The notes below the pieces were generated by a model that saw nothing but the letters and a program-made list of their open reading frames with translations, made no database searches and was not told the DNA's origin. Below, piece after piece: positions 7,025 to 40,191 of a stretch of 64,000 bases of DNA (its first letter is position 1; each line of letters begins with the position of its first letter). Source of the stretch: Liolophura sinensis (Eukaryota > Mollusca > Polyplacophora > Chitonida > Chitonidae); contig NC_088297.1 in assembly GCF_032854445.1 (NCBI RefSeq), positions 23,015,127 to 23,079,126 on the forward strand, given 5' to 3'. The translations under genes and the position numbers were made by a program.

Positions 7025-7060
7025 CACCAGCTTAACACCCTATCCTCTCATCACTCCATC

Positions 7061-10898: not shown

Positions 10899-10955
10899 AC
10901 CGAAACTTTGAATACATAGCTTCTCTTAATGATACACATCATTTGACAAATAATT

Positions 10956-12595: not shown

Positions 12596-13399
12596 ATATT
12601 TTAAATATCTAACTACGCCATACCCAACAACGCTGATTGAAAAGTCAACAACATGTGCAATGGCACCCATGGAAAACAAACTTGTATTTTAACACATGTG
12701 TACCTATTCTGTTTATGGGATCCACGCCTGAAAGCTCGATGCTAGTCAACTTTTACGCCTAGCTTGATTAGAGAGCTGAGGTCCTATTCTTTTCATCCCC
12801 ATTGATCCGAAGTGGACCAGGCCGCGTTCGGGCAATAAAACAAACGGTCAACTAATAAAGTGATGTATTGCGTATTGGCCTACAAATACGTGTACAAAGA
12901 CGGCGTGCGGTGATTCTGACTGGTTTCCTCCATCCATAAATCTGAGAACGTTCGCAAGTAAACAAATTATAATATGGTGAATCAAATAAATAAGTTAATA
13001 CTGTATTTGATTGCTTTAAATTCTAATCTTAATAAAAGATGAGGCGTCACCTTGTTATTACATAAAAAGTACTAACCTTTATTTTGCCGATGTAATTTCG
13101 CCGAATGTGAGGTAAAAGAAAGTTATGATACCAATGTGAATCGAGGCAATCGTCTTGAGAATTTTATCCAGTTGAACCCTAACAGACTGCGCTATAAGAT
13201 CATTACCCATTCGCCCAAAGGAGCGACGGCTAATATGACATTGACTTGACTTCGGGATCATTTACAAGAATTTAGTTTGGCATTGTGTAGCCGGAGGTCC
13301 GCGAAGTCTGTGTCATCAAATGGATTGCAGTTGTACTGCACTGTATCTTTCTTGCTAAAATTGTGTGTATGTTAAATATGATAACAAGGCAGCATTTTG

Positions 13400-13660
13400 A
13401 GTAATTCTAGATCAGTGACGTCTTATAAGTTGCAATTAATATCACAGCATTTCCCCCCTAATTCTGCTTTAGTCGTCGTGCTTTGGGCCGTGTAAATTAC
13501 TACAATTTAAATGTTTCCATGAACAGTTAGAATAAAACCCTAAATGGTTGAACACTCTATTCTGTATTTTTTTTTCATGAGGAGAATAAAAACGTAACTG
13601 AAGTAAACTGATAAGAGGCCGTATTTCACGGATTACGCGTGACCATTTGTCATCTGCCAC
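13400..13660. repeat. Dispersed repeat E
   Basis: TAGATCAGTGACGTCTTATA and the following bases resemble 25475-25770, where a SINE (25523-25665) has split the copy. It is also present in duplication copy 2 near 63450. Confidence 0.5.
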
Positions 13661-13959
13661 CCTGCAACGGCCATGCTGATACCTTTTATTACAGCGTTCT
13701 GGTTAGAGATCACCATACAACCTGTACGTGTTGTGATTTCTCAGAAAAATCCAAGGTTCCAGCCCGGCGCTCGGGCAGGGAAAATGTTCATTTCCACCAT
13801 GATAGGTTTGGCAAATCAACGTTATATATGTGGGAACGCACGTCAGTAACTTGACCGTGGACTTACCCCGGGCACTTCGGTTACTCCACCAATTAAAAAC
13901 TATTGCCGCCGTGTAAGTGAAAAAAACCCTAAGTATTGCGTTGAGAAACAATCAAGCAA

Positions 13960-15122: not shown

Positions 15123-15159
15123 TTACTCTTGGTAGTCGTTGATGTCATCGTTTTCATCC
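15123..15159 (-). CDS. L1-like gene, last exon (acidic C-terminus)
   Basis: Acceptor TTGAATTGCAG. It encodes SDENDDINDYQE and TAA. The stop overlaps an AATAAA (15124-15119), a possible poly(A) signal implying a very short 3' UTR. No FIGQY motif follows. Confidence 0.7.
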
Positions 15160-18100
15160 CTGCAATTCAAGAGCAAAGTTAACCATAAGAGTGATTTTCT
15201 ATAGACCTTGAATTAGTATGCGACTAGGTCGTGGATTTCTCCCGGGCTCTTCCTGGTTTCCTCCCACCATAATGTTGGCCACCGTCGTATCAGTGAGATT
15301 TTCATAAATACGGCGTATAACACAATTTAAACAAACAAACAAAGTAAAGGACTAAAATGGCATAAAACAGAAAACAAGTAAATAAATTATAAGCTCATTC
15401 TAAATGGTCCCTTGAATGGCATCCTTGACCTCCTAAGTTGCAGCTTACCTGTTCGTTACCACCAGGACACATATCTATCATGTTCCTACTTATTTTTCTC
15501 AGGATATAACAGTATTTCAGTATCAAAGAACTGAGTACATATTTTAAGGGGTTCATAATTTTATTGGTAAAAGTGGGTCTTTGGGAGTTTGACTTACAGC
15601 CTATGCCCGCTTTCCACCTACCATAATGTTGGCCGCCGTCGTGTAAGTGAAATATTCCTGAGTACAAGGTGAAACACCAATCAAATAAAGAAATACCGGC
15701 TGACGGCGCTTACATGTGATTTGGATATTTCGAATCCACTATTCGTCATTCAGTGGGCTGTTTCAAAGCACATAATGTACATTACCGTACCAAAGAAAAC
15801 GCTAGAAGTTTTAAGGATCGAAAGAAAAGTCAATCAGACACCAAAGCGACATCACAAAACAGAAGTTAGATCTCATTAATATGTTGTAAATGTCTAGCGC
15901 GCGCACTTTGCTTTCTACATTCAAAAGCACGTGTAAGAGCATGCGCACAAGACACAGCAGACTCACGAGCGGTTTAGTTCCTGCATCTTGTTTTCCTCGG
16001 CTAACTCTTTCACAGGATCGTGTCCGGCCTGGCGCTCCCGTTTGTCCACTGAAAAGCACAACAGAGATATAACGATTAAATTTGTGTATTTATTTGATTA
16101 GTATTTTACGCCGTACCCAAGAATATTTCACTTATACGACGGCGGTAAGCATTATTGTGGGAGGAAACCGGACAAAGCCCGAGGGAAACCCACGACCATC
16201 CGCAGGCTGCTGCCAGACCACGCGGGAAATCATTTACAACACAGAAACAGATTAGCCTGTTTTGTGATTAAATCTGTGTAATGCATTACAGCGGCACATA
16301 TCGTTGAACTTCGAAATGATCAAAGTCGCCTGATAGTGTATAGTGTAATTTTTCTTTAGTGTGAATAACATAGGTCTCAGATTGGTGTTTGGTGTTATGT
16401 ATAGAAACACCGCTAAATTCTGACGTCATAAATACTAAATCGCCCCTTTCGAATCACCGATCACCGTCTTTACATACGTATCACCAATCCATTTGAGCAT
16501 AGTGCCAGATTATGGACGACATGTGAAATTGAGGCTATAGGCTAGCTGTAGAGGAGGCGTTCTGATCTCATGAGTTAACGCATTCGAATCCGGTTGTCTG
16601 TGATATGCCGGCAACTAAAAACAAATGCCGATGGTATTGACAGAGCTCTTAACCCAGTTTTAGACATCCTGGGACTCGATCGCTGTGGTTTTAATGTAAT
16701 ACGCATGGAAATGTGTTAAAAAACCAACTGAATGCATCAATAGGTGGAGAAGAAACCAAACGCAACAGAACGTTCTGTTCGCTTCCTTCTCATCGATAAA
16801 TTATCCATGCATACAAACTTACCATTCTATCCAACAAAAATTAAACCAAAATACGAAAACTAATTTCGTTATATTTATTTCCTTTAATTTTTTTCTGTTT
16901 TGACGGTTGTTTGAAAATCTGATGAAAAGACTTGCGCATCACATTCGTCAACGACAAGTGGTCCTCAACGAACATTTGACGGCACAAACGGTCACTCGAG
17001 CATTCCCAGCCGCTTATTATCACCAAGGCCTCACTAATAAAGAGATTTGGCCAATTTACAAAGTCTCAGTCCAAGGCACGGGTTGAACTCCAACCTAGCC
17101 TGCTTAAAGTTGGAGTCGAGCACTAGTGAGCCACGTCATATCATCGAACCTGAAAAATGTAAAAACTGCCGTCTGCATGTCTATTGGAAGAAGAGGGCGT
17201 TAGCACATCAGCGCGGTGCAATGACCCTGGAGGTTGTTTTTCAAAGGGGTCGTAACGTTATGCCGGTCGTAAATACCAAGGCGGCATATGCCGTCAGTAT
17301 CTCGCGTCATAGTGATTAGGCCGGCGTCACGTTATGGCGGTTGTAAATACCAAGACGGCATATGCCGTCAGTATCTGACGTCATGGTGATGAGGCCGGCG
17401 TAACGTTATGGCGATTGTAAATACCAAGGCGGCATATGACGTCAGTATGCGACGTCATGGTGATTAGGCCGGCGTTACGTTATGGCAGTTGTAAATACCA
17501 AGGCGGCAAATGACGTCAGTATGCAACGTCATGGTGATTAGGCCGGCGTTACGTTATGGCAGTTGTAAAAACTGCCGTCTGCATGTCTATTGGAAGAAGA
17601 CGGCGTTAGCACATCAGCGCGGTGCAATGACCCTGGAGGTTGTTTTTCAAAGGGGTCGTAACGTTATGCCGGTCGTAAATACCAAGGCGGCATATGCCGT
17701 CAGTATCTCGCGTCATAGTGATTAGGCCGGCGTAACGTTATGGCGGTTGTAAATACCAAGACGGCATATGCCGTCAGTATCTGACGTCATGGTGATGAGG
17801 CCGGCGTAACGTTATGGCGGTTGTAAATACCAAGGCGGCATATGACGTCAGTATGCAACGTCATGGTGATTAGGCCGGCGTTACGTTATGGCAGTTGTAA
17901 ATACCAAGGCGGCATATGACGACGTCATGGTGATTAGGCCGGCATTACGTTATGGCGGTAGCAAATACCAAGGCGGCATATGCCGTCAGTATGCGACGTC
18001 ATTGTGATTAGGGCGCCCTAACATGTCGAACCCTTTGAGAAACAGCCCCCAGAAGCCTCTCGCCAATGCGGTAGCTGTTAGTCCTATAGTTCAGCTCATG

Positions 18101-21100
18101 CTGGCTTCATCTCCGGCCGTCCGTGGGAAGGTTTGCAGATGGTCGTGAGTTTACCCGTGGCTCTAACCAGTTTCCTCTCACCATAATGTTGGCCGTCGTC
18201 GTGTAAGTGAAATATTCTTGGTACCTGATGCTGCCTCGCTTGGCGCTCAACACTGAGAGATTAGAGCAAGAAAACAGGACTGGTTGACCTGGTATCAGTG
18301 TATAATGTGACTGGATGGGGTGTCATTTATGGTGTCTAGTGGCGGTAGCAATTTGGCGGCAGGAACTCGCCCGGCCACGAGGAGACGCTGTATATGTACA
18401 CACACCTAATGACTCTTCGTCGTCATAGAACTCAAAAATTGTTAAATACGACGTTAAATCCCAAGCGTTCATTCACTCATTCATTCATTCTAGATTATGA
18501 TTATGTCATCTGTACCCGATTTGTGACCCCTTTCAGGAGAGGCAGTAGATAGAAGGCTACAGTCCTCTGCATTAGGAGAGTATACATAGGCTTACTATTA
18601 AAATGACTTTTACCTTATTACTGGTCACATTAAAAAAACCTCTTTCCAGAAACACCACATAATATGCGTTATTTTTCAAAACAGTCTGGTCAAATGGTAA
18701 ACAAATAAAGTCCAAAACTGATCAGTAAACCAATCAGAGTCGTCCTCTTTTTCTGTGAAATAAGTTGCACGCGTGAATAGGAAGCGCGATGGTTTAGGGG
18801 CATGTTACGCTCTGTTTTAGACCAAAGGGAACGATCTGGCCCCGGGATCACAAAATGATCTTAGAATTAAGTCAAACTTTCATGCATTAAGTTGGTAAAT
18901 TCCTTTGCGTCATTTTAGTTCAATTTTGTTGTACAATAACTTATCCTAAATTTATCCTCTCAAGCAATATCTTGCCCTTGGCACGTAAACAAAAACAATT
19001 TTACAGTGATTTGAAATTTTGACTTAAGTCTAATATTGCTTCGTGATCCCGGAGCCTGAGCGGCAACTCAGAATGTTTTCTACTGTAAAGCGTGGCTAAA
19101 ACGTGGCTCTTTGTTCTTAACCAGAAAATGTCAACACATATTCGCGCGTGTCCCTACTGACATGGTTTCATTTTCGTTGATCCCAACATAAGACTGGTCA
19201 CCGTCATGTACGTGAAATATTCTTGAGTACGCCGTAAATCACCAATCAAACAAATAAATAAACAAATTATTCTCTTTGATTTATTCTTGATTACGTTTCA
19301 CTTACCTAGATACACGCCTCCCTTGTTCCTGATCTGCATGTATATAATCCCCAGAGTGAGGACGATGACTAAAAGTATGGCACCCACAAGTCCTAACCAC
19401 CAGAGAGGCATTCCGGCAGAGGCGGTCTCCCCGTGCACAGCTGTATGACAGATCACGTGATGTATGTTTGTAGCAAATCATTTTCAATCTCAACCTATTC
19501 GTAAATGACTACCTTATCACACATATTTATGTGGAATATTTTTCCGTTGGATTCTGATGGTGAATAATGATGTTATGTCAGAAAGTTGCCTAATTTATAG
19601 GGACAGAAAACATAAAAATGAAGTAAGCATAAGTGGAATGCATGGCTTTTAAAAACTATCGGATGAAGCCTTTAACTTGACGACCACGGTTCTCTCGCGC
19701 GAATCCGTCTTGGTATTCCGCGCATGTGCTCTATCATGGTGAACATCACTGCCTAGCTCTGTAGGTCAGTGGTTACGTATACTATCACAGCCTTGTCTTG
19801 TTCCATAAGATTACCTTAAACACCTCTGTACTTCCCTTGCTGTCCTCAGTACACTACTGCCGTCCGCCAAATAACGTGTCTGTCCATGCTTATAGTGGTT
19901 TCAGCTATCAATTCCATGTAGGTTTGCCCAGGTGCAATCACTAAAATTCCACAGAAGCATAAAACTGCTGGACATTGGATACATTCCAACTACAACGGCC
20001 ATGTTTCAATGCCTACTCTTCACAGTGAGGGGAATCACGAGGGTATCACTACCACTACTAGACAAGTTTGACCTTTTCACACATATGAGGTATCAGTCTC
20101 ACCTGTAATGACCGCGCGTTGACTCATAATCAACATTTATCACTAAAAAGATTTCTGCACAAAATATTCTTATTAGTGGTGGCGTCATGTTCAGCTAGAC
20201 CAGAAATTTGTTTATCTCATCTGTATGCGCTGTGAGGAGTATGTATGCATGGCGGTTGGAATTGCTACTGATCCACTTTCTACTAGTTTTATTCTTCTGT
20301 GGACTTTCTGGTGATGGCACAATGGTACTCTCACCTTGAATTAAGAGCTCATGCGATTAAGAGTGCGAACAGATATATTATTTGACAGACAGCATTAGTG
20401 TATTGAGGTCAGCACGGGAAGTACAGAGGTGTTCAAACTAAGCTTATGGAACACGACAGGACTGTAATAGTATCAGTAATACGCTATGAAACAGGGAATG
20501 ACGATGCCTCGACTTTTGTTGTGCATGGCGAAGTAACGAAGGCAGTGATGTCATAGTTAGCTCACTGCCTCGCTGCCTCGACTTTTGTTGTGCATGGCGA
20601 AGTAACGGAGGCAGTGATGTCATAGTTAGCTCACTGCCTCGCTGCCTCGACTTTTGTTGTGCATGCCGAAGTAACGGAGGCAGTGATGTCATAGTTAGCT
20701 CGCTGCCTCGCTGCCTTGACTTTTGTTGTGCATGCCGAAGTAACGGAGGCAGTGATGTCATAGTTACCTCGCTGCCTCGACTTTTGTTGTGCATGGCGAA
20801 GTAACGGAGGCAGTGATGTCATAGTTAGCTCGCTGCCTCGACTTTTGTTGTGCATGGCGAAGTAACGGAGGCAGTGATGTCATAGTTAGCTCACTGCCTC
20901 GCTGCCTCGACTTTTGTTGTGCATGCCGAAGTAACGGAGGCAGTGATGTCATAGTTAGCTCGCTGCCTCGCTGCCTTGACTTTTGTTGTGCATGCCGAAG
21001 TAACGGAGGCAGTGATGTCATAGTTACCTCGCTGCCTCGACTTTTGTTGTGCATGGCGAAGTAACGGAGGCAGTGATGTCATAGTTAGCTCGCTGCCTCG

Positions 21101-24100
21101 ACTTTTGTTGTGCATGCCGAAGTAACGGAGGCAGTGATGTCATAGTTAGCTCACTGCCTCGCTGCCTCGACTTTTCATGTGCATGGCGAAGTAACGGAGG
21201 CAGTGATGTCATAGTTAGCTCACTGCCTCGCTGCCTCGACTTTTGTTGTGCATGGCGAAGTAACGGAGGCAGTGATGTCATAGTTAGCTCGCTGCTTCGC
21301 TTCGCTATCTAGACATATGGTACTGAGCTTGCGAAATGTCCTGTGCCGGGTTCTACAATAGGGTAGTTTTTAATAATGAAATCTACCAATATGACCTATA
21401 ACGACAACTTACTATATCCAGCTTTCTTTGACGTCACAGTGAATTTAAGTCGCTTGGTTGCCTGGGGAACGCCTACAGTCACTTCGCAGACGTACTCTCC
21501 CATGATGTTCGAAAACTCACTGTCTTTGAGGTAGCTCGTGTCGATAGTCAGGTGACTAAATCCGTCCTGTGGATAAACCTGGATCCCGGCGTCAAGGTTG
21601 GATGTCTTTAGCTCGAAGTTTGCGTGGTGCCAAATGTATTTCAGGTCATCTTTGTAATCTGGGTCAACAGTGGCACTGACGTTGAGATGACCTTTCCCCC
21701 CAGGGACTATGTCCACGTGACTGTCTGATGCGTTGATTTGAATGGGCTCTGCAGACAATAGTAGTAAGGAGAACAGTGTTTCGAATAAATAAAGGAATGC
21801 TTGGGGTTTAACGTCGTACCTAACAATTTGTCAGTCATATGACGACGAGGAGTTAGGTGCGTCTGTGTATATACGTGTCTTCATATGGCAGGGCGAGTCC
21901 ATGCCGCCAAAGTGCTGTTGCCACCGAAGTATCATGCCGAAGACGCAAGACAAGACACCCCACCCAGTGACATTATGCTGACACGGGACAATCAGTCCTG
22001 TTTCCTTCCTCTAACCGCTCTGTGATGAGCGCTTAACGAGGCACAAACAAGTACCGACCCAGGTTTGATTCTGGGTCCCCGATTTCGAGGCTGACGATCT
22101 AACCATTAGGCTACCAGTGTTTCGAACAATTGCTCAAACCAGATGTCTGGTTAACCGAAGCCACTTGATGGGTGTAAAAAAATTGTTACTTTACTTGGCA
22201 GATGGGTGTTTGATTACTTATTATTCGCAAGTCACGTATTGATCCTACAAGATATGTAAAAAAGACGGTCACGTCTGAAAACATGACGTCAGTACCGTCG
22301 CTCTCTCGGTAGATTTACACAAGATGGCTGCCTTTGACTTCAATTACGTTACAACAGATAGTTTGGAGAACATTTTGATGACAGATGAGAGAGACAAAAA
22401 CAAGACTAATATAGAGAGAGACCAAAACACTAAAATAGAACCGATTTTAGGTGATAAGTTAAGCCTCGTGAATACAACCAACCGATATGTGACAAGCTGT
22501 GCGGCCATCTACAGTCAACTGGTACAAGACGTCCTGTCTAGTCCTCTTCTTTCAACTTTACAAGGCAATTTCTGCAAGCATCTTTCTTTCAGCTTTTAAA
22601 ACACAACCTCTTCAAGCATCTTCTTTCAGCTTGTAAAAGACAACTTCTCCAAACATCTTCTTTCAACTTTTACAAGACAACTTCTCCAAGCATCGTCTTT
22701 CAACTTTTACAAGACAACTTCTCCAAGCATCGTCTTCCAGCTTTTAAAAGACGATCTCTCCAAACATCGTATTTCAAATTTTACAAGACAACTTCTTCAA
22801 ACATCGTCTTTCAACTTTTTACAAGACAACTTCTCCAAACATCTTCTTTCAACTTTACAAGACAACTTCTCCAAGAATCGTTTTCAATTTTTACAAGACA
22901 ACTTCCCCAAGCATCGTCTTTCAGCTTTTAAATGACGATCTCCCCAAACATCGTTTTTCAAATTTTACAAGACAACTTCTCCAAACATCGTCTTTCAGCT
23001 TTTAAAAGACGATCTCTCCAAACATCAGTTTTCAAATTTTACAAGACAACTTCTCCAAACATCGTCTTTCAGCTTTTTAAAAGACGATCTCTCCAAATAT
23101 CTTCTTTCAACTTTTACAAGACAACTTCTCCAAACATCGTTTTTCAAATTCTACAAGACAACTTCTTCAAACATCGTCTTTCAGCTTTTTACAAGACAAC
23201 TTCTCCAAATATCTTCTTTCAACTTTTACAAGACAACTTCTCCAAACATCGTCTTTCAGCTTTTAAAAGACGATCTCTCCAAACATCTTCTTTCAACTTT
23301 TTACAAGACTTCTCCAAACATCGTTTTTCAAATTCTACAAGACAGCTTCTTCAAACATCGTCTTTCAACTTTTTACAAGACAACTTCTCCAAATATTTTC
23401 TTTCAACTTTTACAAGACAACTTCTCCAAACATCTTCTTTCAACTTTTTACAAGACAACTTCTCCAAACATCGTTTATCAAATTCCACAAGACAACTTCT
23501 CCAAACATCGTCTTTCAACTTTTTACAAGGCAACTTCTCCAAATATTTTCTTTCAGCTTTTACAAGACAACTTCTCCAAACATCGTTTTTCAAATTTTAC
23601 AAGACAACTTCTTCAAACATCTTCTTTCAACTTTTTACAAGACAACTTCTCCAAGCATCGTTTTCAATTTTTACAAGACAACTTCCCCAAGCATCGTCTT
23701 TCAGCTTTAAAAGGCGATCTCTCCAAACATCGTTTTTCACATTTTACAAGACAACTTTTCTAAATATCGTGTTTCAGCTTTAAGAGACGATCTCTCCAAA
23801 TATCCTCTTTTAAACTTTTTACAAGACAACTTCTCCAAATATCTTCTTTCAACTTTTACAAGACAACTTCTCCAAGCATCGTCTTTCAACTTTATAAAAA
23901 ACTTCTCCAAACATCTTTAAACCTATCAGGACAATTAGTACAGAGACAGTTACCCGTAGATGTTCAGCCAACTTGTTCAAGAGAACTTTTTCGTAGGCTT
24001 ACAGAACAACTTCTTCCAAACATTCCAGACAACTAAATCAAGAAACAAGGAAACCGGACAAAGGCCGATGAATATCAATGGCCGTCCGCAGGTTGCTGCA

Positions 24101-30100: not shown

Positions 30101-33100
30101 AGATCCAAAGTGTACAAAGAGTGACCAGTAGTGGTAAGGCAAATACCATGGAAAACTTGTATACTGCTTCCAAGCAGTCTGTACACACGATTTTTATTGT
30201 CTGCTTCAGAATAAATTTGTTCCATACCCTCTTCACGGCAAACCATTCGAATCTATGGATTCTATGCTCTGTCGATACCAGGTATTCTGATACGAGAGAA
30301 AATTAACGAAATCCGTGCAAGTCTATGAGCTCTTCGTTCCAGCAGAAACAAGTCATCTGTATAGCTTGTTTCTTTCAGAAACAGGCTTTTTTGGTTGGAA
30401 ACAAAAACAAAAATTGCATGTTCCCAAGGTTGGCATTTTCTAAAAGAATATAAGTTAGTTATTAGAGGGGAAATATGGAAAATTCAGTTTGAACTGCATA
30501 AAATGTGACTAAATGTCTGTACCCCGTCTCTATATCCGTCATTGTGGGACAGTTACAAATGAGCGATCAAGTTTGAATGTCGCGCTGTTTTGTCCACTTA
30601 GCACCATTTTGCTGTTGATTTTGCCATTTCTCTGAACTCAAACATTGTGTGTAATTTCAGTGTGGTAAGATACAGGCGAAGTTTTGAAAAGCAATCTGTT
30701 TATCAGTCTATGTTAAATTGCTTTTGTTTCTCTTGCTAAAAAGCAGTTGAGCATTCTGTGTAAAATAACCTGATATTTGTAATTATATTCCATTTCATCT
30801 CAGTTTTGGTAGCGTTATGGACAGAAATTCTTCTGGTAGAACTCATTGGGCAAGCTATTCTTTTTTTTTTTTTTTGATTGGTGTTTTACGCCGTACTCAA
30901 GAATATTTCACTTGCACGACGGCGGCCAGCATTATGGTGGGTGGAAACCGGGCAGAGCCCCGGGGAAACCCACGACCATCCGCAGGTTGCTGTCAGACCT
31001 TCCCACGTACGGCCGGAGAGGAAGGCAGCATGAGCTGGTCTTGAACTCACAGCGACCGCATTGGTGAGAGGCTTCTGGGTCATTACGCTGCGCTAGCGCG
31101 CTAACCGACTGAGCCACGGAGGCCCCGGCAAGCTATTCAGATGACTTGTTCGTGTATAAGAACATGTGTGACGCGTGTTTCGCATTTATTTATTTAATGC
31201 TTGTTAAACAGGCGTTTTGGAGTTTACGTACACGCTTAAGTACACTACCAGAACTTAGCGTCCGTTTAGGTCTAAACGGTGTGATGTGAGAGGTAAGCAC
31301 GACTGGCGTTTAGTCACTAAGCACTGCTTTCTCCACACTTATTTAGGTTTTAAGCCATCATTTTTAATGTCAACTGGTTTTTGAAAGCCTCATTGGTGTT
31401 TGAAAGTCATGTCGGGTGTGGAGGGTGGGTGGGTGGATGTGGAGGGGGGATAGGTTGGTGTGGAGTGGGGGGGGGGGGGAGTGACTGCCATGTAGAATCT
31501 ATACGATCTTTTTTTCTGTGCAGCCCACGGGATTTGGTGATGTATTGTGTAAGAAGTTAGCAGTTTTGATGGATACTTTTCTTACAAAACGACAAAAGGC
31601 AGTTTCCAGAGAAGAAAAAAAGTGGTAACAAATAAAATACGCTTTCAGTTTGGAAGCTTAATTATGTGTATCTTGTAGCAAAACGTCGGTTTCTATAGAT
31701 CGATGTCGAGCTGTTGTTGTGGGTAAATTATACTCAGGGAGTTGCTTTCGCTATCCCATTACCTCGCTATGGTGAGGCCACGCTGCCTTGAGGTAGCAAA
31801 GTGATGTAACAAGAATATGCTACTCGCTGTCCTTTTACCTCGCTCCGGTGAGGCCTCGCTGCCCCGAGGTAACGAAGCGATATGAAAAGCATACGCTATC
31901 TCGCCGTGCCATTACCCAGCTACAATGAGGCCTCGCTGCCTCGAGGTAGGAACCGATGTAACAAGGAAATGCTATCTCGCTGCCCCATTATCTCGTCACA
32001 GTGAGGCTTTGCTGCCTCGAGGTAGTCAGGCAATGGAACAAAGATATGCTATCTCGCTGTTCCATTACCTCGCTCCGGTGAGGCCTCGCTATCTCGAGGT
32101 AGCCAAGCGATGTAATAAGGAAATGCTATCTCGCTGTCCATTACCTCGCTGTGGTGTGGCCTCGCTGCCTCGCCGCATCACAGCCACATATATGAACAGT
32201 TGCAATCAAAGCGCATCTGAGATACATATTTTATTGTCGACAAGTTATATAATATCATAGTACACGATTTGAGTACTGATTTCACTCATTCGCCAAGACA
32301 ATACCTTGCATCTTTCCAAATTTAAAACTGTTCACTGTTTTTCTTTGAATGATTCCGCCTTATCTTCATACTTTATATACTTTCTTAGTTATTTGGTAGT
32401 TCATGTTAAACTTTTTCCCAAGAATTTGTCTTGCGATTATTCACCTGGAACGTCCAGCTTGGTTGACGGCTGGTATACGAATATCTGTTTCGACGCATAG
32501 ATTAACTACCTCGACATTAGTTGATTTCACAAATCTTGTCATACCCTTATTGTGTAGTTCTACAACCAGAACTCACCTAACTGGTCCACGGTAATTCGCC
32601 GGCTATGCGGAATTTCACTCTTACCAAGGTACCAGTTAAAGTCCTTGAGGGCAGGACGTGGCTTGCTGTCAGGTCGACTACGGCAGGGAAGGGAATGATT
32701 CTTACCGGCGTGCCCCGTCACATTCTCCGGCATTTCCGTCGGAAATCTGAACAAGTCTGATGAAAGAAGCCTATTGTTTTAAGTCAGAACTTATTGAAGT
32801 GGTCAAAGTAACAATCTCACTATGTAACTTTAGTGACGGCGTCTTCTGTCAGACTTCCCTCGATCTCACATTTCGTGAGGTCACGGTGTTACATGTACAT
32901 GTGCATAAAAATACACGAATAATTTTATAGACATGTCAGGAATAGGCATTAGACATGACATGAGTTGGTAATAAACGTGTGAGGAATTGACAATAAACAT
33001 GTCAGGAATTGGCATTAGACATGTCAGGAATCGGCAACAGATATGACAGGAAAGGGCATTCGACATGTCAAAAATTGTCAATAAACATGTCAGGAATTGG

Positions 33101-36100
33101 TATTAGACATTATAGGAATTGGCAACAAACGTGTCAGGAATTGGCAACAGACGTGTCAGGAATTGGCAACAGACGTGTCAGGAATTGGCAACACATCAGG
33201 GCTTGGCATTGGACATGACAGGAATTGGTAACACACGTCAGGAATTGACATTAGACATGTCGGGAATTGGCCATAGACGTGACAAGAATTTTTAAATAGA
33301 CGTGTCAGGAATTGGCAATAGGCATGACAGGAATTGGCATTAGACATGACAGGAGTTGGCATTAGACATTTCGGGAATTAGCATTAGACATGTCAGGAAT
33401 TGGCAATAGACATCTGCGAAATTGGCAATGGACATGTCAGGAATTGACATAGACATGTGAGGAATTGGCATTAGATGACAAAAATTGGCAATAGACATGT
33501 CAGAAATAGACATAGACATGCCAGGAATTGGCAGGAGACATGTCAGAAATTGGCCTTAGACATGACAGGAATTGGCGTTAGACATTGCCAAGAATTTACA
33601 ATATACATGTCAGGAGTAGGCAACAGACATGTCAGAAACTGGCAATAGCCATGTCAGGAATTGGGTTTAGGCATATCAGGAATTGGCATTAGGCATGTCA
33701 GGAACGACATTAGACATGTGAGGAATACTAAATACTAAAGCAAAATCGACCCTATAGCCTATCAGAACACATTGGGTGAGATTTCATTGGTTAACTTATA
33801 TATTTCATCAGTGGCTTAGGTCATACATGTGTACAATTGACATATTCCTTCAAGTCTTGTGGGATAAGGAATTAAGTAGCTCACATCATCGTACAGAGCA
33901 CAGCCCAGATCTAATATGTGAAGTGTAATGACAGCGACGTCATTTTTAGGTAGTTCATATTATTGTATGGAACACAGCCTAGTCTAAAAATGTGACATGT
34001 GATGACGTCAGCAACGGAATAGAGTGACATCTTTCATTAACGCAATATATTAGCTACATCGTTGTGAGAAAAAGTCAGGAGTCCCATGCGGATATTATAA
34101 GATTTAATAAATATACATCTGACTCCAATAAATGAGACAAATCTAGGCGTTTCACCAAATGTGTGGTAAAGCTCTATACTGGACAATGTGAATCTTACCT
34201 GACTTAGTCAGAGTTTTCGCGGAAGATCGGGAAACTCCGTAAGTGTTAGTAGCCACACAATAGTACGTTCCTTCATCCGCCACCGTGACCCTTGTGATGT
34301 TGATATGCCCCTGTTTTAACGCGATCCTTTCAGTAATGTCCAGAACTTCGCCATCTTTTACCCAGGTGATACTGTAAATAAAGAATCTTTATTACGGAGA
34401 AAAGGGCATTGGGGAGATAGGACAGCTAGAAAGAAGTGCTTTATTTATGTCTGCATTACGTGGTTATACATATTAAGAAGAAATAAAACTTTTTAATTTT
34501 CTGCACGGTTGTATTCCAGCCGCACTTTCGAACTTTCCCTAAAAGTGCCCGACAGACCTTAAGTTTGTAAACTTGTTTGGAAAGCCCCAGATAAATTCTA
34601 TGTATTTTGGAATTCATTCGAAAGGAATTTTGAAATCCTGGCCCTAGTTAAATACAACAAACAAAATTTAGCTGGAAAACATCGACTTAATTTAAGATCT
34701 CTCGACATTTCTGCGACTTTCAAAGACTGATATCATGTGTTTTACATTTTGTTGCCTAGAAAATGTGTGCCATTGTCGAGACACAACGTAAATACCGTAT
34801 GCTTTAACAGGAAAAAGCAGTTCACACCACAAAACCTAATCTCACGTTACGTCTTAGTGGCTGTCGAGTAAAGGCCGGTGTAAACTGAGTGTTTTGTTGT
34901 GACTCGACCCGACACAATTAAAAATCGCATTGAGTTGCTGACAAATGTTCTGGTGTATACCTCTCCACGACGAAAATCGAGTCCAGTTGGCTGCAGTCGT
35001 GTTTAGTCGTGAGTGATCTGACCGTGCTAGATTTATATAAAAAAAAAAACATCAGACCCAGTCGAGAGTCTTTTATAGCGTATCCACTCCTACTATCGTC
35101 AGTGACTGTTTTCAACCTTTAGCCAATCAGAACTGGGCGCATAGTCACGCGACCACATTTTGGTATCCAAAATGGCGGTGCCCAAGGAGGCAAATCTTGA
35201 ACCCAATTCCACGAATTGCGCTGGTGTAACCTGAAGGTGACATAATCACAATGACTTAAAGACTTAACTTTGTAATGTTCACACCTAACATATTGAACGA
35301 AGCACAGTCGAAACCACCGAGTTCCAGGTAAGTGGATGTAACGATTCAGATCGGCATAAATAAAGGACTGAGGAAGAGAATCTAAGATGACATGACCAGC
35401 CACCGTCGGAACTAACAATTTACTCGCATTGGCGTCGGAAGTAGCACGTCCGGTACGGTCATGGCCTTACCACTTTCCATCACACAAAAGAAAAAACCAT
35501 GCGCACATTAGACCGTTAATCACGTAAAACTACAATGGATCTATGTAAAGAATAAAAACCACGTAAAACAATTTCAGGGCATCTCCAGCCGTCTAGCATC
35601 CCATATTTTCGGGATCTAAGCGGCCCTGTACAATTGCCTTTCGCACTAGGACAGTTGACAGGAGCCGTACCACCACACTGACCTAACCATGTACACGGTG
35701 TTTTTTTCAGCCCATTTTAAACCTGACCTCTGACGTATTCTTGAAATGTTCACCCTGAACTAGGCGCACAGTCATGCGGCCACTTTTTGGTATCCAAAAT
35801 GGCGTCGCCCAAGGAGTAGACGACAAGCTCATCGAGCTTTGGAGTGATGAGCCTTGTGAAAAAGCCCCTGCTGTTCACGCAACAGTAGACAAGACTTTAC
35901 CCATCAACTCCTGAAAGCTACAACTTCCTCTTTTAAAGCCTTTGTTGTGACTGGATCTTCCGGTCCCGAAGCGGACGATCTACCAACTGTGTCATTGTTG
36001 CGAGTACATGTGGGTGATCTTACATTTCCTTCACAGTCTTACCTTGGAAGTGGATATCCCGTCACAACACATTCAGCTGCGATATAATCGTTAAAAAAGT

Positions 36101-39100
36101 CCTGGCTAGTCAGCGACGACACAGACGGTGGGCGTGGTTCTGGAGAGAAGATAAATGCATTTACTGGAGGGGGACGAGTCACGTGGTACACACTTGCAGA
36201 TCGAGATGTAAAGGGGAAGATGTAAACTTGGGATGCTAGGAATATCACACAACAGAGTTTAACATAGTCCATTCAACAATCTGATTTTTACAATGAACAA
36301 TAAACAATGAACCAAGTAGACGACAAACAATTACATAGGCAGCAACCTCAGCCTTACAACTCTCTATCATTTCCCTTCGAAGCCGAGTTTGGATTGACGT
36401 CGATATTTTGTTATATCCCTACAGATTGGGTTTTATTCGTAGGTGGCGTCTCCTACTCCAATACCTAATACCTCCTCTCCGGCCGCACGTGCGAAGGTCT
36501 GCAGGTAAACTGCGGATGGTCGAGGGTTTCCCCAGGGCTCTGCCCGACTCCCCCCACCATAATGCTGACCGCCGTTGAAATATTCTTCAGCACGGCGTAA
36601 AAAAATTCCGATCAAATAAATCAATCAAACAGTCTCGAAAGACAACAGGCCCGTAGACGCGAGGTCCCTTGTTCGAATCCAGCTAGCTCTGCTCCCAGAG
36701 GTAGGTCATTTTCTAGTTCTGAAATCGCTTTCATTCTTCCCAGATCAGCTTTTAGAATTATACCTCTGTGTATTGTTATACATTCAGTAACCTGGAACTT
36801 AGCCCTGTCGCCTGCGCTGTACGTGTGAAAACACGCCACAAAACTGGTTTCTTTTGATATTGAAGCAAGTCTGAATTCTAATCACCTCATTGTCCGTGAA
36901 CAGTAAAGACTGTGCCCTCACCATAAACACACGTATTTGAAAGTGTCCACTGAGACAGCATCCGAACTCGACTCCTTTGCAAAGCTTTCGAATATAAATG
37001 TTACAAGAACACATTGATTTTTCTCACTATTCATGTAGTAAATTAGTGAACCTAAACCTAATGTATGCCCCCTAGCTTTCCACCAGTACAAAGCCATATC
37101 ACCACATGAACCTTGCACTTTTTTCTACAACATATCCAAAACTAAACCTAGCATGACCACCGTTGGAAGTAAAGTCATAGCATTTTGTTACCTTGGTAAC
37201 CTCCAGGGGAGTAAGAAGTAACATAGGCAAAACGGTTTTTAGTCGTATCCTAAAAGAGACAAAATTTTCATATATTTTAACTAGGTGCAAACTAACAGGG
37301 CAGAAATGTATAGTGCATCAATAACCTAAAATGTCCGTGAGGCAGTATCACCCAATCAGTGCTCCTTCACTCTTTCACAATTCCACGAAAGATTCCCGGT
37401 GTACCTAAAGGTGACATAATGTCACAATGACTTGAAGTAAACCGTGTTTTTTTTTTTTGTTTTTTTTTTTTGTTTGTTTGTTTGTTGTTGTTTTTTTTTT
37501 GTGTGACGTTCATACTTCACATGTTGAGCACAACACAGCCGGAGCCAACGAGTTCCAGGTAAGTGAATGCAACGATTCAGATCGGCATGAATAAGGAACT
37601 GAGGAAGAGAATTAAGGATGACATGATCAGCCATCCTCGGAACTAACCATTTACCTGCGGTGCAGTCAGAAGCAGCACAGACGGTACGACCATGGCCGTA
37701 CTACCTTTCATCACTCAAAAAAAACGTAAAGAAGAAAAATTAAGATAAGAAATCAAAAGTAAAGTCGAACAAATTTACTGGCGACCAACAACATGAAGGC
37801 TCATGTGCACACCTGTGCACACTAGACCTTTAATCACAAAGAGCTGCAATGGATTTATGTGAAGAACAGAAACCCCGTTAACAATTTCATCTCCAGCCGT
37901 CTAGGACTCCAAAGCTGTCGGGGTCTAAGCGCCCCTGCACAACCGCCTTTCGCACTAGGACAGTTTACCGGTGGCCCTACCACTAAATTGACCCGACTTG
38001 ACTATACACGCTGTTTTTTCGACCCATTTCAAACCTGACCTCTGACGTACACTTGAAATATGCGCCCAGAAGGGCGTAAAACACTAATTCTAACAGCTGA
38101 TTCTGTAACCTAAAAAAGCATTGGACAGACTAGATTTGAGATCGGTTTAAACGTCCGTATCTGTCTTCTACACTCACGATCTAAATGTACACAAAATAAT
38201 TTGTTAAATTGCCGACTGAGTCACTTTCACCCACATCATTCTTTACTCAAATAATTCGAAGTGGTTTGATTTAATTTTGCTCACCATTCAGTTTTATTTT
38301 GAATACAAAATTAAAAACATATATCAAAGGAGAAAAAATGTTAAAAACATGCAAATTTCACATGAAAACGTGTGAAAAGTTAATCGTAAATATGGTCTTA
38401 AATATTTTTGTCATTTGAAAATAATTTTTGTGTGGTTGATATTTGCTACCACCATTTGGCGTCTATGGGTTTGTTATGATGTGATGCATGTATGTGTAAT
38501 AAATTTATCTGAATGAAAATCTGCTGTTTATATCTAAACATATCCGTTAAATCTGAATTAAGACAATAATTAGATATATATTACAAATATAAATATGAGT
38601 AAACAGCTGAATTAAAACTTGTCAGAAGGAAACCCAAATGTATTTATTGGACATGAGCCATATCCTTTTTTATGACTTTCTTGTGCAAAGAAGATATATA
38701 CCAAGGAATGACCCTAAATACCCACGATACAAAATTATTTTCAAATGTCCATTTCTCCTAAAAGAAAAAAAGTATTCAGTCTTGATCATGTTTACAAATA
38801 ACTTTTCACATTCTTTCGTTTGATTTATTTCTTTATTCATTTGATTCGTGTTTTGCGTCGTGGTTAGGAATATTTCACTTGTACGACGGCGGACGGCATT
38901 GTGATGGGAGGAAACCGGACAGAGCCCGGGAGAAAACCCATGACTATCCGCAAGTTGTTGGGAGACCTTCCCACGCACGACTGAAACTCACATCGACCGC
39001 ATTGGTGAGAGGTTCATGGTTTACTGCGCCCTGCTGGCTTCCTAACCAACTCGGCCTCGGAGGGCCCTTTTCATTTCTTTATTTGACTTTTATGTTTTCC

Positions 39101-40191
39101 CCAGAGCTAAAGAAAGATTGGATTATTTGAGATTAACCTAAAGGCAAATACACTGTACACTAAGTTCGCAGCTTGTATCTTTCCTATTTTGACGACTTAA
39201 TAACTGTAGCCGACGCAGTTTTCTGAGAAACGCAATGAACGAATGACTAATGAAATGGGTGACGAAGAGATAGTGACTAGGTAATCAGATCACCTATAAT
39301 GTCATTATGCATGTACTCCGCGTCATTTCACTTCCGGTTCAGGTTGCCCCAGTTTCTCCGTGACCATATATGGAATTATTTCACAGATACTGAACTTAGA
39401 GTTTTCTAAATTGTACTCCACGCTGTGGTTTACTAGTGTAGTTCCCATTTGTAGTCAGAGAGCAGAGGGTAAGACAAAAGTGCATTTGACACTGTGGTTT
39501 ACTAGTGTAGTTCCCATTTGTAGTCAGAGAGCAGAGGGTAAGACAAAAGTGCATTTGACACTGTGGTTTACTAGTGTAGTTCCCATTTGTAGTCAGACAG
39601 CAGAGGGTAAGACAAAAGTGCATTTGACACTGTGGTTTACTAGTGTAGTCCCCATGTGTTGTCACAAAGTACTTGGTAACACAGAAGTGTATTTGACGCT
39701 GTACTTTACCAGTATAGGCTATGTTTATAGTCACAAAGTACAGGGTAAATTAGAAGTGTACTTGACGCTGTGGCGTTCTTGTGTAATTCCTATTTGCACT
39801 GATAAAGTACGCAGCTACATGTATATAAGCATAATATATATGCGTATGTATTCTTTACTGTATGTATTTCCTGATGATAGCACAAACATAATGACCGAAT
39901 TATAGAAAAATATTATGACATTAATATTCGGAGTTACTTCCTTTCTGTTTTATAAAACCACAAGTTAAGACTGTATGATTTTGGTCTGACAGCTCCGTGG
40001 TCCTGGCACCAGGGCGACCTATGTTGTATTTATTTGAGTGCTAAGGGCTACTTAACACTAAGCATGCTTCATAAAACTAACCCCATGACTTATACAACAC
40101 GGTATAAACCATAAGTGTACTTACTTAACGCTGTACTTATGCTGAAGACTGACAGCGCACAAAACACAACACAGACGGGGTTCCATGCCAT
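15123..40191 (-). CDS. L1CAM/neuroglian-like Ig-domain membrane protein lacking FnIII repeats (13 exons, 595 aa)
   Basis: Coding exons in transcript order: 40191-40125, 36139-36043, 34371-34199, 32756-32577, 29760-29629, 28775-28673, 27987-27806, 26087-25959, 24362-24228, 21748-21413, 19440-19306, 16048-15967, 15159-15123. All introns are GT-AG and all 12 phase joins agree, giving 1788 nt. The protein has a signal peptide (1-22), Ig1 (23-112), Ig2 (113-216), Ig3 (217-311), Ig4 (312-399), an Ig6-like domain (400-511), a transmembrane helix (about 524-546) and a 49-residue tail. L1-family marks are the Ig2 segment RRITVDQLGNLHF, WFIN in Ig4, DPxxxDDLxxxW in the fifth domain and RNKGG after the membrane. 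Family members usually have six Ig and about five FnIII domains, about 1200 aa, and an ankyrin-binding FIGQY tail; FnIII and FIGQY are not seen here. The likely role is cell-surface adhesion or recognition. Exons hidden in the repeat-filled introns cannot be excluded. Confidence 0.8.
15228..15345 (+). mobile_element. SINE 3' fragment
   Basis: GGTTTCCTCCCACCATAATG, then GGCCACCGTCGTATCAGTGA and an AACAAACAAA tail. It lies immediately upstream (plus side) of the last exon of the L1-like gene, in its final intron. Confidence 0.7.
15600..15692 (+). mobile_element. SINE 3' fragment
   Basis: CCATAATGTTGGCCGCCGTC through GTGAAATATTCCTGAGTACA and ACACCAATCAAATAAAG. Confidence 0.75.
15967..16048 (-). 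CDS. L1-like gene, exon 12 (cytoplasmic tail, charged)
   Basis: Acceptor GTGCTTTTCAG, donor GTGAGT. It encodes VDKRERQAGHDPVKELAEEN followed by KMQELNR, a charged and probably helical segment. Confidence 0.75.
16083..16220 (-). mobile_element. SINE 3' fragment
   Basis: Reverse-strand body: TTTACGCCGTACCCAAGAAT, CGACGGCGG and CCACGACCATCCGCAGGC. It begins 35 bases from L1-like exon 12. Confidence 0.8.
17158..18230 (+). mobile_element. SINE interrupted by a MITE that has grown into a 74-bp minisatellite
   Basis: The SINE head (TTAGCACATCAGCGCGGTGC) stops at AATGACCCTGG and resumes at CAGAAGCCTCTCGCCAATGC (18049). The insert begins GGTTGTTTTTCAAAGGGGTC and ends with its imperfect inverse GACC/CGAACCCTTTGAGAAACAGC. 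Between them lie about ten 74-bp units (AACGTTATGGCGGTTGTAAA...). A 408-bp block including the SINE head and MITE end (17158-17565) is repeated at 17566-17970. Confidence 0.75.
18230..18490 (+). mobile_element. SINE (CACTCACTC-tail group), 5' truncated
   Basis: Diverged body (CTCGCTTGGCGCTCAACACT) and the tail ACGACGTTAAATCCCAAGCG followed by ATTCACTCATTC repeats. It abuts the end of the SINE at 18045-18225. Confidence 0.7.
18838..19055. mobile_element. MITE family C (GGCCCCGGGATCAC ends)
   Basis: GGCCCCGGGATCACAAAATG at the left; TTGACTTAAGTC..CGTGATCCCGGAGCC at the right, inverted. A relative is at 46508-46720. Confidence 0.7.
19180..19266 (+). mobile_element. SINE 3' fragment
   Basis: CGTGAAATATTCTTGAGTAC, GCCGTAAATCACCAATCAAA and an (AATA)n tail, 40 bases from the transmembrane exon donor. 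Confidence 0.75.
19306..19440 (-). CDS. L1-like gene, exon 11 (transmembrane helix)
   Basis: Acceptor GTCATACAG, donor GTAAGT. It encodes a short juxtamembrane linker, the hydrophobic run LWWLGLVGAILLVIVLTLGI (524-543) and then YMQIRNKGGVYL. The RNKGG just inside the membrane is an L1-family hallmark. Confidence 0.85.
20505..21300. repeat. 60-69-bp minisatellite with 260-bp higher-order unit
   Basis: Unit CTGCCTCGACTTTTGTTGTG..GCAGTGATGTCATAGTTAGC. Units of about 60 and 69 bases alternate, and the pattern from 20631 recurs at 20891 (260 bases). It lies in the intron between exons 10 and 11 of the L1-like gene; its minus-strand open frames are not exons. Confidence 0.9.
21413..21748 (-). CDS. 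L1-like gene, exon 10 (whole Ig6-like domain, one exon)
   Basis: Acceptor TTGTCTGCAG, donor GTAAGT. It encodes residues 400-511. DPDYKDDLKYIW matches the Ig6 pattern DPxxDLxxxW and GEYVCEV gives the F-strand Cys487. The B-strand position that should pair with it (HLNVSATV) has no Cys. Unlike Ig1-4, which are each split over two exons, this domain lies in a single exon. Confidence 0.85.
21786..22114 (-). mobile_element. Full-length tRNA-derived SINE with target duplication
   Basis: On the minus strand it starts GGTAGCCTAATGGTTAGATC (A box) with a GGTTTGATTC-like B box and ends ACGTTAAACCCCAAGCATTC. It is flanked by CAGTGTTTCGAA at 21774-21785 and 22115-22126. It lies in an intron of the L1-like gene. 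Confidence 0.8.
22555..23915. repeat. 38-bp minisatellite (about 36 units)
   Basis: Unit TTTCAACTTTTTACAAGACA + ACTTCTCCAAACATCGTC with 1-2-base variants. A 283-codon frame at 22932-23783 is a by-product. Confidence 0.9.
24048..24142 (-). mobile_element. SINE internal fragment
   Basis: GGAAACCGGACAAAGGCCGA through GTCCGCAGGTTGCTGCAAGA and CGTCCGGAGAGGAGGCCAGC. Confidence 0.7.
24228..24362 (-). CDS. L1-like gene, exon 9 (Ig4, second half)
   Basis: Acceptor TTTTTACAGAG, donor GTGAGT. The earlier CAG two bases upstream would give a frame with a stop, so the second AG is chosen. It encodes LVVNNVQ, SIQCHV (Cys381) and DATLTVI. Confidence 0.8.
24781..24820. other. Perfect 13-bp hairpin
   Basis: AAAAGTGATATCT (24781-24793) and its exact inverse (24808-24820) with a 14-base loop. 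A looser inverted pair of about 55 bases lies nearby at 24412-24552. Both probably belong to decayed MITEs in intron 8 of the L1-like gene. Confidence 0.6.
25523..25665 (-). mobile_element. SINE 3' part
   Basis: TTTATTTATTTGATTGGTGT through CCACGACCCTCCGCAGGTTG. It is inserted within a dispersed repeat also seen at 13400-13660. Confidence 0.8.
25795..25895 (+). mobile_element. SINE 3' fragment
   Basis: GGTTTCCTCCCACTATAATG, then GTGTAAAACACCAGTCAAAT and an (AATA)n tail. Confidence 0.75.
25959..26087 (-). CDS. L1-like gene, exon 8 (Ig4, first half)
   Basis: Acceptor TTATCTCTGTAG, donor GTGAGG. It encodes EFQCVVNEADADIAWFINDK with Cys335 and Trp346; the WFIN motif is characteristic of Ig4 in the L1 family. 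Confidence 0.85.
26640..26845 (+). mobile_element. tRNA-SINE, nearly full length, diverged
   Basis: GGGGCCTCCGTGGCCTAGTT head, GAGTTCAAGTCC B box and ACACCAATCAAATAAATAAG tail. It lies in what would be an intron of the L1-like gene, in antisense. Confidence 0.8.
27000..27800. other. Intron between exons 7 and 8 of the L1-like gene, no other feature
   Basis: A minus-strand frame of 184 codons (26729-27283) starts in unique sequence and runs into the antisense of a SINE; it shows no domain or splice support. Confidence 0.4.
27806..27987 (-). CDS. L1-like gene, exon 7 (Ig3, second half)
   Basis: Acceptor ACGTTCATAG, donor GTAAGT. It encodes PEVTWIPPGG (Trp258), SDEGIYACKAKNSGG (Cys293) and the closing IQVTVT. 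This is the cleanest Ig signature in the gene. Confidence 0.9.
28465..28494 (+). mobile_element. SINE tRNA-head fragment
   Basis: GGGGCCTCCGTGGCTCAGTT only; no body follows. A similar head-only piece is at 14834-14870. Confidence 0.6.
28673..28775 (-). CDS. L1-like gene, exon 6 (Ig3, first half)
   Basis: Acceptor TTTGTGTTTCCAG, donor GTAAGT. It encodes LELQCIADG (Cys246), the B strand of Ig3. Confidence 0.85.
29629..29760 (-). CDS. L1-like gene, exon 5 (Ig2, second half)
   Basis: Acceptor CTGTTGACAG, donor GTATCC. It encodes GNLHFLPL and MYNCSVFN (Cys194). The domain closes with TKLTVIS. The donor is weaker than the others. Confidence 0.8.
30861..31126 (-). mobile_element. Full-length young tRNA-SINE (GTGAAATATTCTTGAGTACG body)
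   Basis: On the minus strand it starts GGGGCCTCCGTGGCTCAGTC with an intact A box, a B box GTTCAAGACC, the conserved body, and ends ACACCAATC and poly-A. It has a perfect 12-bp target duplication GGCAAGCTATTC (30849-30860, 31127-31138). It is the best-preserved copy here and lies in the intron between exons 4 and 5 of the L1-like gene. Confidence 0.9.
31735..32190. repeat. About 78-bp minisatellite (about 6 units)
   Basis: Unit TGCTATCTCGCTGTCCCATT..GAGGCCTCGCTGCCTCGAGG..AAGCGATGTAACAAGGAA. It lies in the intron between exons 4 and 5 of the L1-like gene. Confidence 0.8.
32577..32756 (-). CDS. L1-like gene, exon 4 (Ig2, first half)
   Basis: Acceptor TTCTTTCATCAG, donor GTGAGT. It encodes Cys137 (SLPC) and Trp154 (FNWYLG), ending in RRITVDQL, which matches the C'-D region of L1-family Ig2. 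It includes an NVT sequon. Confidence 0.85.
32935..33728. repeat. 22-bp minisatellite (about 35 units)
   Basis: Unit GACATGTCAGGAATTGGCAT+TA, with many point variants. It lies in the intron between exons 3 and 4. Confidence 0.9.
34199..34371 (-). CDS. L1-like gene, exon 3 (Ig1, second half)
   Basis: Acceptor TTTATTTACAG, donor GTAAGA. It encodes ITWVKDG (Trp58) and DEGTYYC (Cys93), the typical C and F strands of an I-set Ig domain. One NIT sequon lies at 79-81. Confidence 0.85.
35206..35756. repeat. Dispersed repeat D, copy 1
   Basis: Shares TTCCAGGTAAGTG, GATTCAGATCGGCAT, TCTCCAGCCGTCTAG and CCTTTCGCACTAGGACAGTT in order with 37380-38066. Together they flank exon 2 of the L1-like gene. A further short match (TTTTGGTATCCAAAATGGCG) occurs at 35157 and 35787. 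Confidence 0.7.
36043..36139 (-). CDS. L1-like gene, exon 2 (Ig1, first half)
   Basis: Acceptor TTCTCTCCAG, donor GTAAGA. It encodes KPRPPSVSS through ECVVTGYPLP, giving the B-strand Cys46 of Ig1. The exon sits between two direct copies of a dispersed repeat (35206-35756 and 37380-38066). An open frame runs upstream through the acceptor but is intronic. Confidence 0.8.
36470..36628 (+). mobile_element. SINE 3' part
   Basis: CTCCTCTCCGGCCGCACGTG through ATAATGCTGACCGCCGTTGA to ATCAAATAAATCAATCAAAC. Confidence 0.8.
37380..38066. repeat. Dispersed repeat D, copy 2
   Basis: Partner of 35206-35756 in the same orientation. It also carries a T-rich run at 37447-37500. Confidence 0.7.
38371..38812. 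mobile_element. Palindromic MITE-like element, family A, independent insertion
   Basis: Ends TGTGAAAAGTTAATCGTAAA and TTTACAAATAACTTTTCACA are mutually inverted, with TTTGAAAATAATTTTTGTGT facing AAAATTATTTTCAAATGTCC inside. This shows the family is dispersed, not only duplicated. It lies in intron 1 of the L1-like gene. Confidence 0.65.
38822..39066 (-). mobile_element. tRNA-SINE, nearly full length, diverged
   Basis: Reads (minus) from GGGCCCTCCGAGGCCGAGTT to the ATAAA tail. It directly abuts the MITE at 38371-38812. Confidence 0.75.
39415..39800. repeat. 69-bp tandem repeat, about 5.5 units
   Basis: Unit CACTGTGGTTTACTAGTGTA..AGAGCAGAGGGTAAGACAAA. The first three units are nearly identical and the later ones diverge steadily. 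69 is a multiple of 3, so a 181-codon frame stays open at 39360-39905. Confidence 0.85.
40125..40191 (-). CDS. L1-like gene, exon 1 (signal peptide)
   Basis: Starts ATG GCA TGG and encodes 22 residues with a hydrophobic core (VCVVFCALSVFSI). The donor is a perfect GTAAGT and the phase is 1. Just upstream, TTTGCTGCAG followed by GAAG (40208) looks like an acceptor, so a 5' UTR intron is likely. Confidence 0.75.

Follow-up and report, generated by a model that had tools for sequence, protein, structure and literature searches.

The question raised by this locus is how a gene with the immunoglobulin (Ig) domains of the L1/neuroglian adhesion family could come to lack that family's fibronectin type III (FnIII) block and ankyrin motif, and whether these parts are truly absent. 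The gene lies in a stretch of 64,000 nucleotides (nt) of the Liolophura sinensis assembly (609 Mb, 632 contigs), C3:23015127-23079126, which we call the window; positions given without a contig refer to the window. Our results, obtained from genomic sequence, show that the window gene is a member of a clustered, L1-derived subfamily. We give a probability of roughly two in three to the whole explanation set out below, in which the gene is an L1 derivative and not a canonical L1 gene.

Gene model and copies

Rebuilding the gene from the sequence reproduced exactly the model of the first-pass annotation: 13 minus-strand exons, running from 40191 to 15123, encode 595 amino acids with the C-terminus DENDDINDYQE. 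All introns are GT-AG, and the exon entry phases are 0,1,2,1,1,1,2,1,1,1,1,1,2. Exon 1 (40125..40191) carries the start codon and the signal peptide MAWNPVCVVFCALSVFSISTAL. The two halves of Ig1 are encoded by exons 2 and 3 (36043..36139 and 34199..34371), those of Ig2 by exons 4 and 5 (32577..32756 and 29629..29760, the latter with GNLHF), those of Ig3 by exons 6 and 7 (28673..28775 and 27806..27987), and those of Ig4 by exons 8 and 9 (25959..26087, with WFIN, and 24228..24362). An entire Ig6-like domain, from which the first Ig cysteine is missing, occupies exon 10 (21413..21748). It is followed by exon 11 (19306..19440), which encodes a stalk, a transmembrane helix and RNKGGVYL, and by exon 12 (15967..16048), which encodes the juxtamembrane tail VDKRERQAGHDPVKELAEENKMQELNR. 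Exon 13 (15123..15159) supplies DENDDINDYQE and the stop, and sits where a FIG(Q/N)Y exon would be expected. The hydrophobic helix and the basic tail after it were identified by eye. These assignments draw on the gene model, supplemented by Pfam and profile comparison for exon 3, by domain profiles for exons 4 to 8, and by profiles and a PDB search for exon 10; exon 9 was assigned from the comparison of copies.

Genome searches, which scored the best candidates only, so that copy and member counts are lower bounds, found at least four copies of the window gene. These are the window copy itself (A1, type W), a partial copy A2 (C3:23083785-23096479; 8 of 13 exons, without exons 1-3, 12 and 13), and two copies with all 13 exons, B (C3:26960193-26984881) and C (C3:27009196-27038796). 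The 67 nt of exon 1 are identical in B and 97% identical in C, exon 2 is identical in both, and exon 11 is 93-97% identical in A2, B and C. Because copies B and C each carry 13 of 13 exons with the same splice places and encode 596 amino acids, the gene model is not a product of chance.

Domain identity

Pfam recognised five I-set stretches and no fn3 in the 595 amino acids. Domain profiles of the window type and its paralogues P1 and P2 (W+P), described below, were compared with six L1-family and six contactin profiles. The W+P profiles hold at most three sequences each, and the Ig6-like profile also includes a locus on contig C7. The L1-family profiles were built from neurofascin, L1CAM, neuroglian and the canonical L. 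sinensis gene N2, plus hemolin for Ig1-4; the contactin set was small, with Ig4 to Ig6 taken from contactin-2 alone. The L1CAM and neuroglian sequences are provisional transcriptions, of which the FnIII part of neuroglian is identical to 1CFB over 205 residues. For P1, P2, N2 and the C7 locus, the pieces used as domains were picked by eye from open frames, and the Ig4 comparison uses the copy C reading after KPVG.

For each of the five W+P domains, its own L1 position was the best of the 12 profiles and scored above any contactin position tested (Ig1 2e-23, Ig2 1.8e-12, Ig3 5.5e-22, Ig4 1.6e-18 and Ig6 1.7e-9). The runner-up was L1 Ig3 for Ig6 (1.5e-6) and contactin Ig1 for Ig1 (2.2e-18). The first-pass reading of the protein as Ig1-4 plus an Ig6-like domain of the L1 family is borne out by this profile comparison, in which the successive domains match L1 Ig1, Ig2, Ig3, Ig4 and Ig6. 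As a control, neuroglian, hemolin and L1CAM were each left out in turn, and 16 of 16 of their domains were assigned to the correct position. Comparison of single sequences was weaker: Ig2-4 were placed, Ig1 was ambiguous (L1 Ig3 43.9, Ig5 41.7 and Ig1 35.5 bits), and the Ig6-like domain was not recognised as Ig6, for which the family profile was needed.

A PDB search with the 595 amino acids returned 92 sequences at or below 1e-8. Neurofascin (7.3e-35; best stretch residues 25-400) and contactins came first, and Robo2, DSCAM, DCC and titin ranked between these and hemolin (1bih, 4.7e-20). When a profile of four Ig6-like domains was used, the first match was contactin-1 residues 488-585, its Ig6 (4.9e-5), followed by LRIG1 (0.0012), contactin-2 Ig6 (residues 492-581; 0.0016) and neuregulin-1 (0.0022). 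The first cysteine is absent from all four Ig6-like domains compared, and its loss may be a derived mark common to them. Single-domain PDB searches were dropped as too weak for placement (cupins came first for the Ig6-like domain, antibody light chains for Ig2). A structure of the Ig6-like domain predicted without an alignment (mean predicted local distance difference test score of 69.4; beta-rich with two helices) was not used as evidence.

The tail was scored separately against the Pfam family Bravo_FIGEY (cut-off 23.8 bits). Taken alone, the window tail matched positions 2-39 of the family at 18.0 bits (E 0.0069), and inside the whole protein it scored 13.2 bits, both under the cut-off. Its score against the neuroglian tail was reached by 5 of 2,000 shuffles and that against the L1CAM tail by 54 of 2,000, both reference tails being provisional sequences. 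An L1-type juxtamembrane tail is weakly marked in the window gene and strongly marked in P1 and P2.

Search for Ig5, FnIII and the ankyrin motif

The first-pass annotation had the Ig6 exon spliced directly to the membrane exon, with no FnIII and no FIGQY, and our scans agree with it on both points. In the three minus-strand frames of the intron at 21412-19441, Pfam recognised no fn3 and no Ig family, and the weak matches to Spo12 and T2SSppdC were below cut-off; FnIII exons concealed between 19,440 and 21,413 were thus looked for in genomic frames, and none was recognised. Between exon 9 and exon 10 (24227-21749), there was no Ig or fn3 match at E up to 0.1 and hence no recognisable Ig5. The three minus-strand frames of 19305-14001 gave no family up to E 5, in a scan that is blind to a strongly diverged tail exon, since the gene's own exon 12 escaped it.

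When the window's minus strand was scanned for F[IVL]G.[YF], no motif in a plausible tail exon was found. Matches to FVGQY at 12886 and 62927, in the two duplicated ends of the window, lie in short frames that look non-coding and were rejected as tail exons, as was FLGIY at 38708, which is not in a plausible tail exon. Exon 13 is identical in 3 of the 3 copies that have it (A1, B and C), and the loss of the motif is therefore not peculiar to A1.

Paralogues and canonical L1 genes

Two neighbouring genes share the ectodomain layout of the window gene. In P1 (C3:22952060-22969670, minus strand), a signal peptide precedes Ig1-4 and an Ig6-like domain; a membrane helix follows at a distance of less than 1 kb, and then comes the tail exon VDEKERRAGHDPEKELADSGFQDLSRA, the equivalent of exon 12. 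The P1 exons were picked out by eye among open frames, and P1 is a candidate structure in which the full splicing and the acceptor of the membrane exon remain provisional. The P1 tail scores 51.8 bits against Bravo_FIGEY, and a further exon carries its last part, FNEDGSFIGNYGGRKG, with the motif FIGNY. No fn3 was found in the three minus frames of 22955001-22965000. P2 (C3:22918432-22934090) has P1-like parts and a tail with SFFVKY that scores 40.9 bits against Bravo_FIGEY; that it is without FnIII was judged by eye and from distance, not by a Pfam scan. Omega between P1 and P2 is 0.25 over 510 codons, which indicates constraint, in an alignment that excludes stretches not aligning gap-free, such as the first exon of Ig3 and the opening part of its second exon. 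The first-pass annotation had treated the lack of cytoskeletal anchoring as a trait of the architecture. P1 and P2 show otherwise, since they share the ectodomain layout and retain the L1 tail.

A further locus, at about 45.601 Mb on C7 (C7:45600500-45602500; L039), combines within 2 kb the second half of an Ig4, an Ig6-like domain that matches I-set at 24.1 bits (cut-off 23.7), and a membrane helix; fn3 was not found in this stretch. The canonical gene N2, also on C7, has Ig1-6 (identified partly by eye) and then fn3 (39.2 bits). Its introns within Ig1-4 lie at places matching those of the window gene, and Ig6 is a single exon in both, as judged by eye. FIGQY was found at C7:45384284.

Several side observations concern these relatives. 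The distance from the C7 locus to canonical L1 genes is about 200 kb. Several loci of the canonical L1 type, with matches to FnIII, fall within C7:45.11-45.40 Mb, at 45112848-45119647 (minus), 45365706-45384442 (plus) and 45393678-45398715 (plus); the pieces of the first two were assumed to belong to one gene each. The ankyrin motif is graded among the paralogues (C3:22918432-22952254, C7:45384284), from FIGQY on C7 through FIGNY in P1 and FFVKY in P2 to none found in the window gene. At C3:22822360-22868986 (L034, L035, L036), four head-to-tail units match the nine Ig1-Ig2-Ig3-Ig4-Ig6-like exons of P1 and are 81-95% identical to them, except for the last Ig6-like exon, which is 56% identical and contains stops. 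At the one junction that was read, an Ig6-like exon is followed by a 326-nt intron and then, in frame, by the next Ig1 exon. No membrane or tail exon of the four units was among the matches listed. The array may be a single gene that encodes about 20 Ig domains.

Phylogeny and selection

Trees were built from 9 sequences (without P1, P2 and N2) and from 12 sequences, with the Ig receptors limited to L1, contactin and hemolin. The 12-sequence tree split W+P from the other sequences with a support of 99.7/100. In approximately unbiased tests (p-AU), a place on the L1 side (0.66) and one on the contactin side (0.63) were both acceptable, neither being preferred. A sister relation of W+P to N2 (0.29) or to neuroglian plus hemolin (0.25) was not rejected, and a sister relation to hemolin alone was rejected (0.003). 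The first tree gave 0.53 and 0.47 for the L1 and contactin placements. The phylogenetic check proposed in the first-pass annotation left the gene within the L1/contactin sample used and did not separate L1 from contactin ancestry. It is therefore the profiles and the tails that favour an L1 over a contactin origin.

Counts of nonsynonymous and synonymous differences without exon 9 were 17/7 (A1-B), 31/9 (A1-C) and 32/6 (B-C; Fisher p 0.43), and those against the broken copy A2, over six exons, were 10/7, 11/10 and 15/8. The W copies show neither clear constraint nor clear positive selection; positive selection among them was not significant.

Alternative origins and the state of the window copy

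Derivation from L1, as first proposed, agrees with the five profiles that fit L1 positions best and with the full Bravo_FIGEY tail of the neighbour P1, and we regard the L1 origin and the architecture of the subfamily as highly probable. A contactin that gained a membrane anchor would be compatible with the trees, and contactin-1 Ig6 is the top PDB match of the Ig6-like profile. All five domain profiles are nonetheless closer to L1, within the limits of the small contactin set (contactin-2 alone for Ig4 to Ig6), and the P1 and P2 tails are well over the Bravo_FIGEY cut-off, which makes a contactin origin very improbable. Even harder to credit is that this is a normal L1 gene with FnIII exons that were overlooked or that dropped out of the assembly. 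The genome does contain canonical L1 genes with FnIII, but in the window gene, in P1 and P2 and at the C7 locus the Ig6-like exon stands close before the membrane exon with no recognisable FnIII between them, and this exon order is kept in copies A2, B and C.

The state of the window copy is a separate matter. The first-pass annotation described the exons as chaining in perfect phase. The 13-exon frame is indeed open, but phase is kept by a second AG, since exon 9 measures 135 nt in A1 against 136 nt in all three other copies (A2, B and C). With the first acceptor (cag|AGGAC, start at 24364), A1 meets a stop inside Ig4, and the 595-amino-acid frame needs the AG 2 nt downstream; exon 9 of A2, B and C is in frame with the first acceptor (in B and C, KPVGEDKRI...RDTLVVNNV). 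About eight residues after KPVG in the window model are doubtful, and the window copy may be damaged and non-functional, misassembled, or spliced at the second AG. A1 could be a pseudogene of a working gene, in which the loss of a base from exon 9 shifts the Ig4 frame and the second AG restores it by chance. The length of exon 9 in the three other copies and the stop after the first acceptor point this way, as does the clearly broken copy A2, with 8 of 13 exons and an exon 4 that has two extra bases and stops. Set against this, A1 is intact in its remaining 12 exons and at their splice sites, its exons 12 and 13 do not differ from those of B, the change sits in a short G run, and use of the downstream AG is possible. 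Short G runs are common places of assembly errors. We consider a pseudogene a tentative explanation, somewhat short of even odds. We are more doubtful that A1-A2 and B-C, about 4 Mb apart, are two haplotypes of one locus, with a real copy number of two and the window base perhaps an assembly error. The spacing of B and C (about 49.4 kb, by the Ig3 exon) resembles that of A1 and A2 (about 48.6 kb), long blocks of A1 and B are mostly 96-99% identical, some 88-92%, and B and C lie near the contig end (27.0 of 27.49 Mb). However, A2 is without five exons (1-3, 12 and 13) and B and C have all 13, so that the pairs are not simply one locus twice.

Proposed origin and working

In the derivation from L1 that we favour, an L1/neuroglian gene would have lost the exons for Ig5 and the FnIII block, after which the single Ig6 exon would splice to the membrane exon. 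The reading frame would survive such a loss because the introns between domains are all phase 1. The founder gene would then have been duplicated in tandem, with P1 and P2 retaining the L1 tail and the window branch additionally losing the exon of the ankyrin motif. In the resulting protein, the Ig1-4 module may bind a partner or itself, held near the membrane by a short stalk in place of the long FnIII rod, and the window branch would presumably not be tied to ankyrin. Such a layout would be better fitted to recognition, to modulating adhesion or to acting as a decoy than to stable axon adhesion. A recognition role of the window type is a suggestion by analogy, to which we give somewhat less than an even chance.

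Window surroundings

The left flank of the window (368..13958) is repeated at 50302-64000 as a direct segmental duplication, 94-96% identical over the three longest blocks and 88% in the fourth. It belongs to a tandem unit, about 50 kb long, in which the Ig gene also lies. Each duplicated end contains a plus-strand exon for a CUB domain (33.0 and 31.2 bits) and a minisatellite with a 43-bp period (2284-3446 and 52236-54345), the length of which differs between the ends. Long tandem-repeat tracts occur at 20444-21308 (intron 10), 22542-24036 (intron 9) and 42477-43998 (upstream of the gene).

Comparison with known systems

The window gene resembles the L1/neuroglian family (L1CAM, neurofascin, Drosophila neuroglian) in having Ig1-4 and Ig6 at matching positions, a membrane helix followed by an RN(K/R)GG tail, whose Bravo_FIGEY region is kept in P1 and P2, and the intron places in Ig1-4 and single-exon Ig6 of canonical N2. 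Canonical members of the family have an FnIII block of four to five domains. Unlike them, the window gene has no Ig5 or FnIII that could be found, no first cysteine in Ig6 and no FIGQY. Caenorhabditis elegans LAD-2, an L1-type protein, reportedly has no ankyrin motif, which makes it similar to the window gene in this respect. The two differ in their Ig domains, as six are predicted for Bma-LAD-2, the filarial orthologue of LAD-2 (PMC9239158). The window gene is also unlike contactin, having no fn3 found and a membrane helix, recognised by eye, in place of a glycosylphosphatidylinositol anchor.

Two secreted proteins, hemolin, an immune protein of moths, and the molluscan defence molecule, bear on the earlier claim of a new architecture. 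That claim is too broad, as L1-type Ig domains without FnIII have a precedent in hemolin and a putative one in the molluscan defence molecule. Hemolin has four Ig domains, and its Ig1-4 module is a bent horseshoe (PMC9163686); the molluscan defence molecule of Lymnaea stagnalis (AAC47132) is described as an immune-related protein with five C2-like Ig domains (PMC11999971, PMC7297532). The latter resembles the window gene in its described number of Ig domains, and a relation to L1 would be putative. Among the titles and abstract beginnings of the open-licence literature searched, no membrane-bound L1 derivative without FnIII was described.

By analogy with these two proteins, recognition in immunity might be guessed at for the window type. 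A wider reading, which we consider possible but rather unlikely, is that L1 was trimmed to its recognition head independently in some lineage outside the moths. This reading would link the clustered short membrane receptors, the stepwise decay of the ankyrin motif (FIGQY in a canonical gene, FIGNY in P1, FFVKY in P2, the exon replaced in the window type) and the array of four five-Ig units (C3:22.82-22.87 Mb), perhaps one protein with about 20 Ig domains, into an L1-derived recognition system, perhaps for immunity or self-recognition, and maybe the source of secreted molecules like the molluscan defence molecule. Paralogues within one cluster appear to have been caught at different points in losing this motif, and the system would allow testing of how axon adhesion is converted to recognition and whether the molluscan defence molecule arose by such a route. 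Compared with hemolin, the window gene is alike in its L1-related Ig1-4 without FnIII and in its PDB match, and differs in having Ig6, a membrane helix and a tail; the rejection of an exclusive sister relation also sets the two apart. Among L1 adhesion proteins, the subfamily would be the second example, and apparently an independent one, of the loss of the FnIII rod, here with the membrane anchor kept and the L1 tail kept in neighbouring genes.
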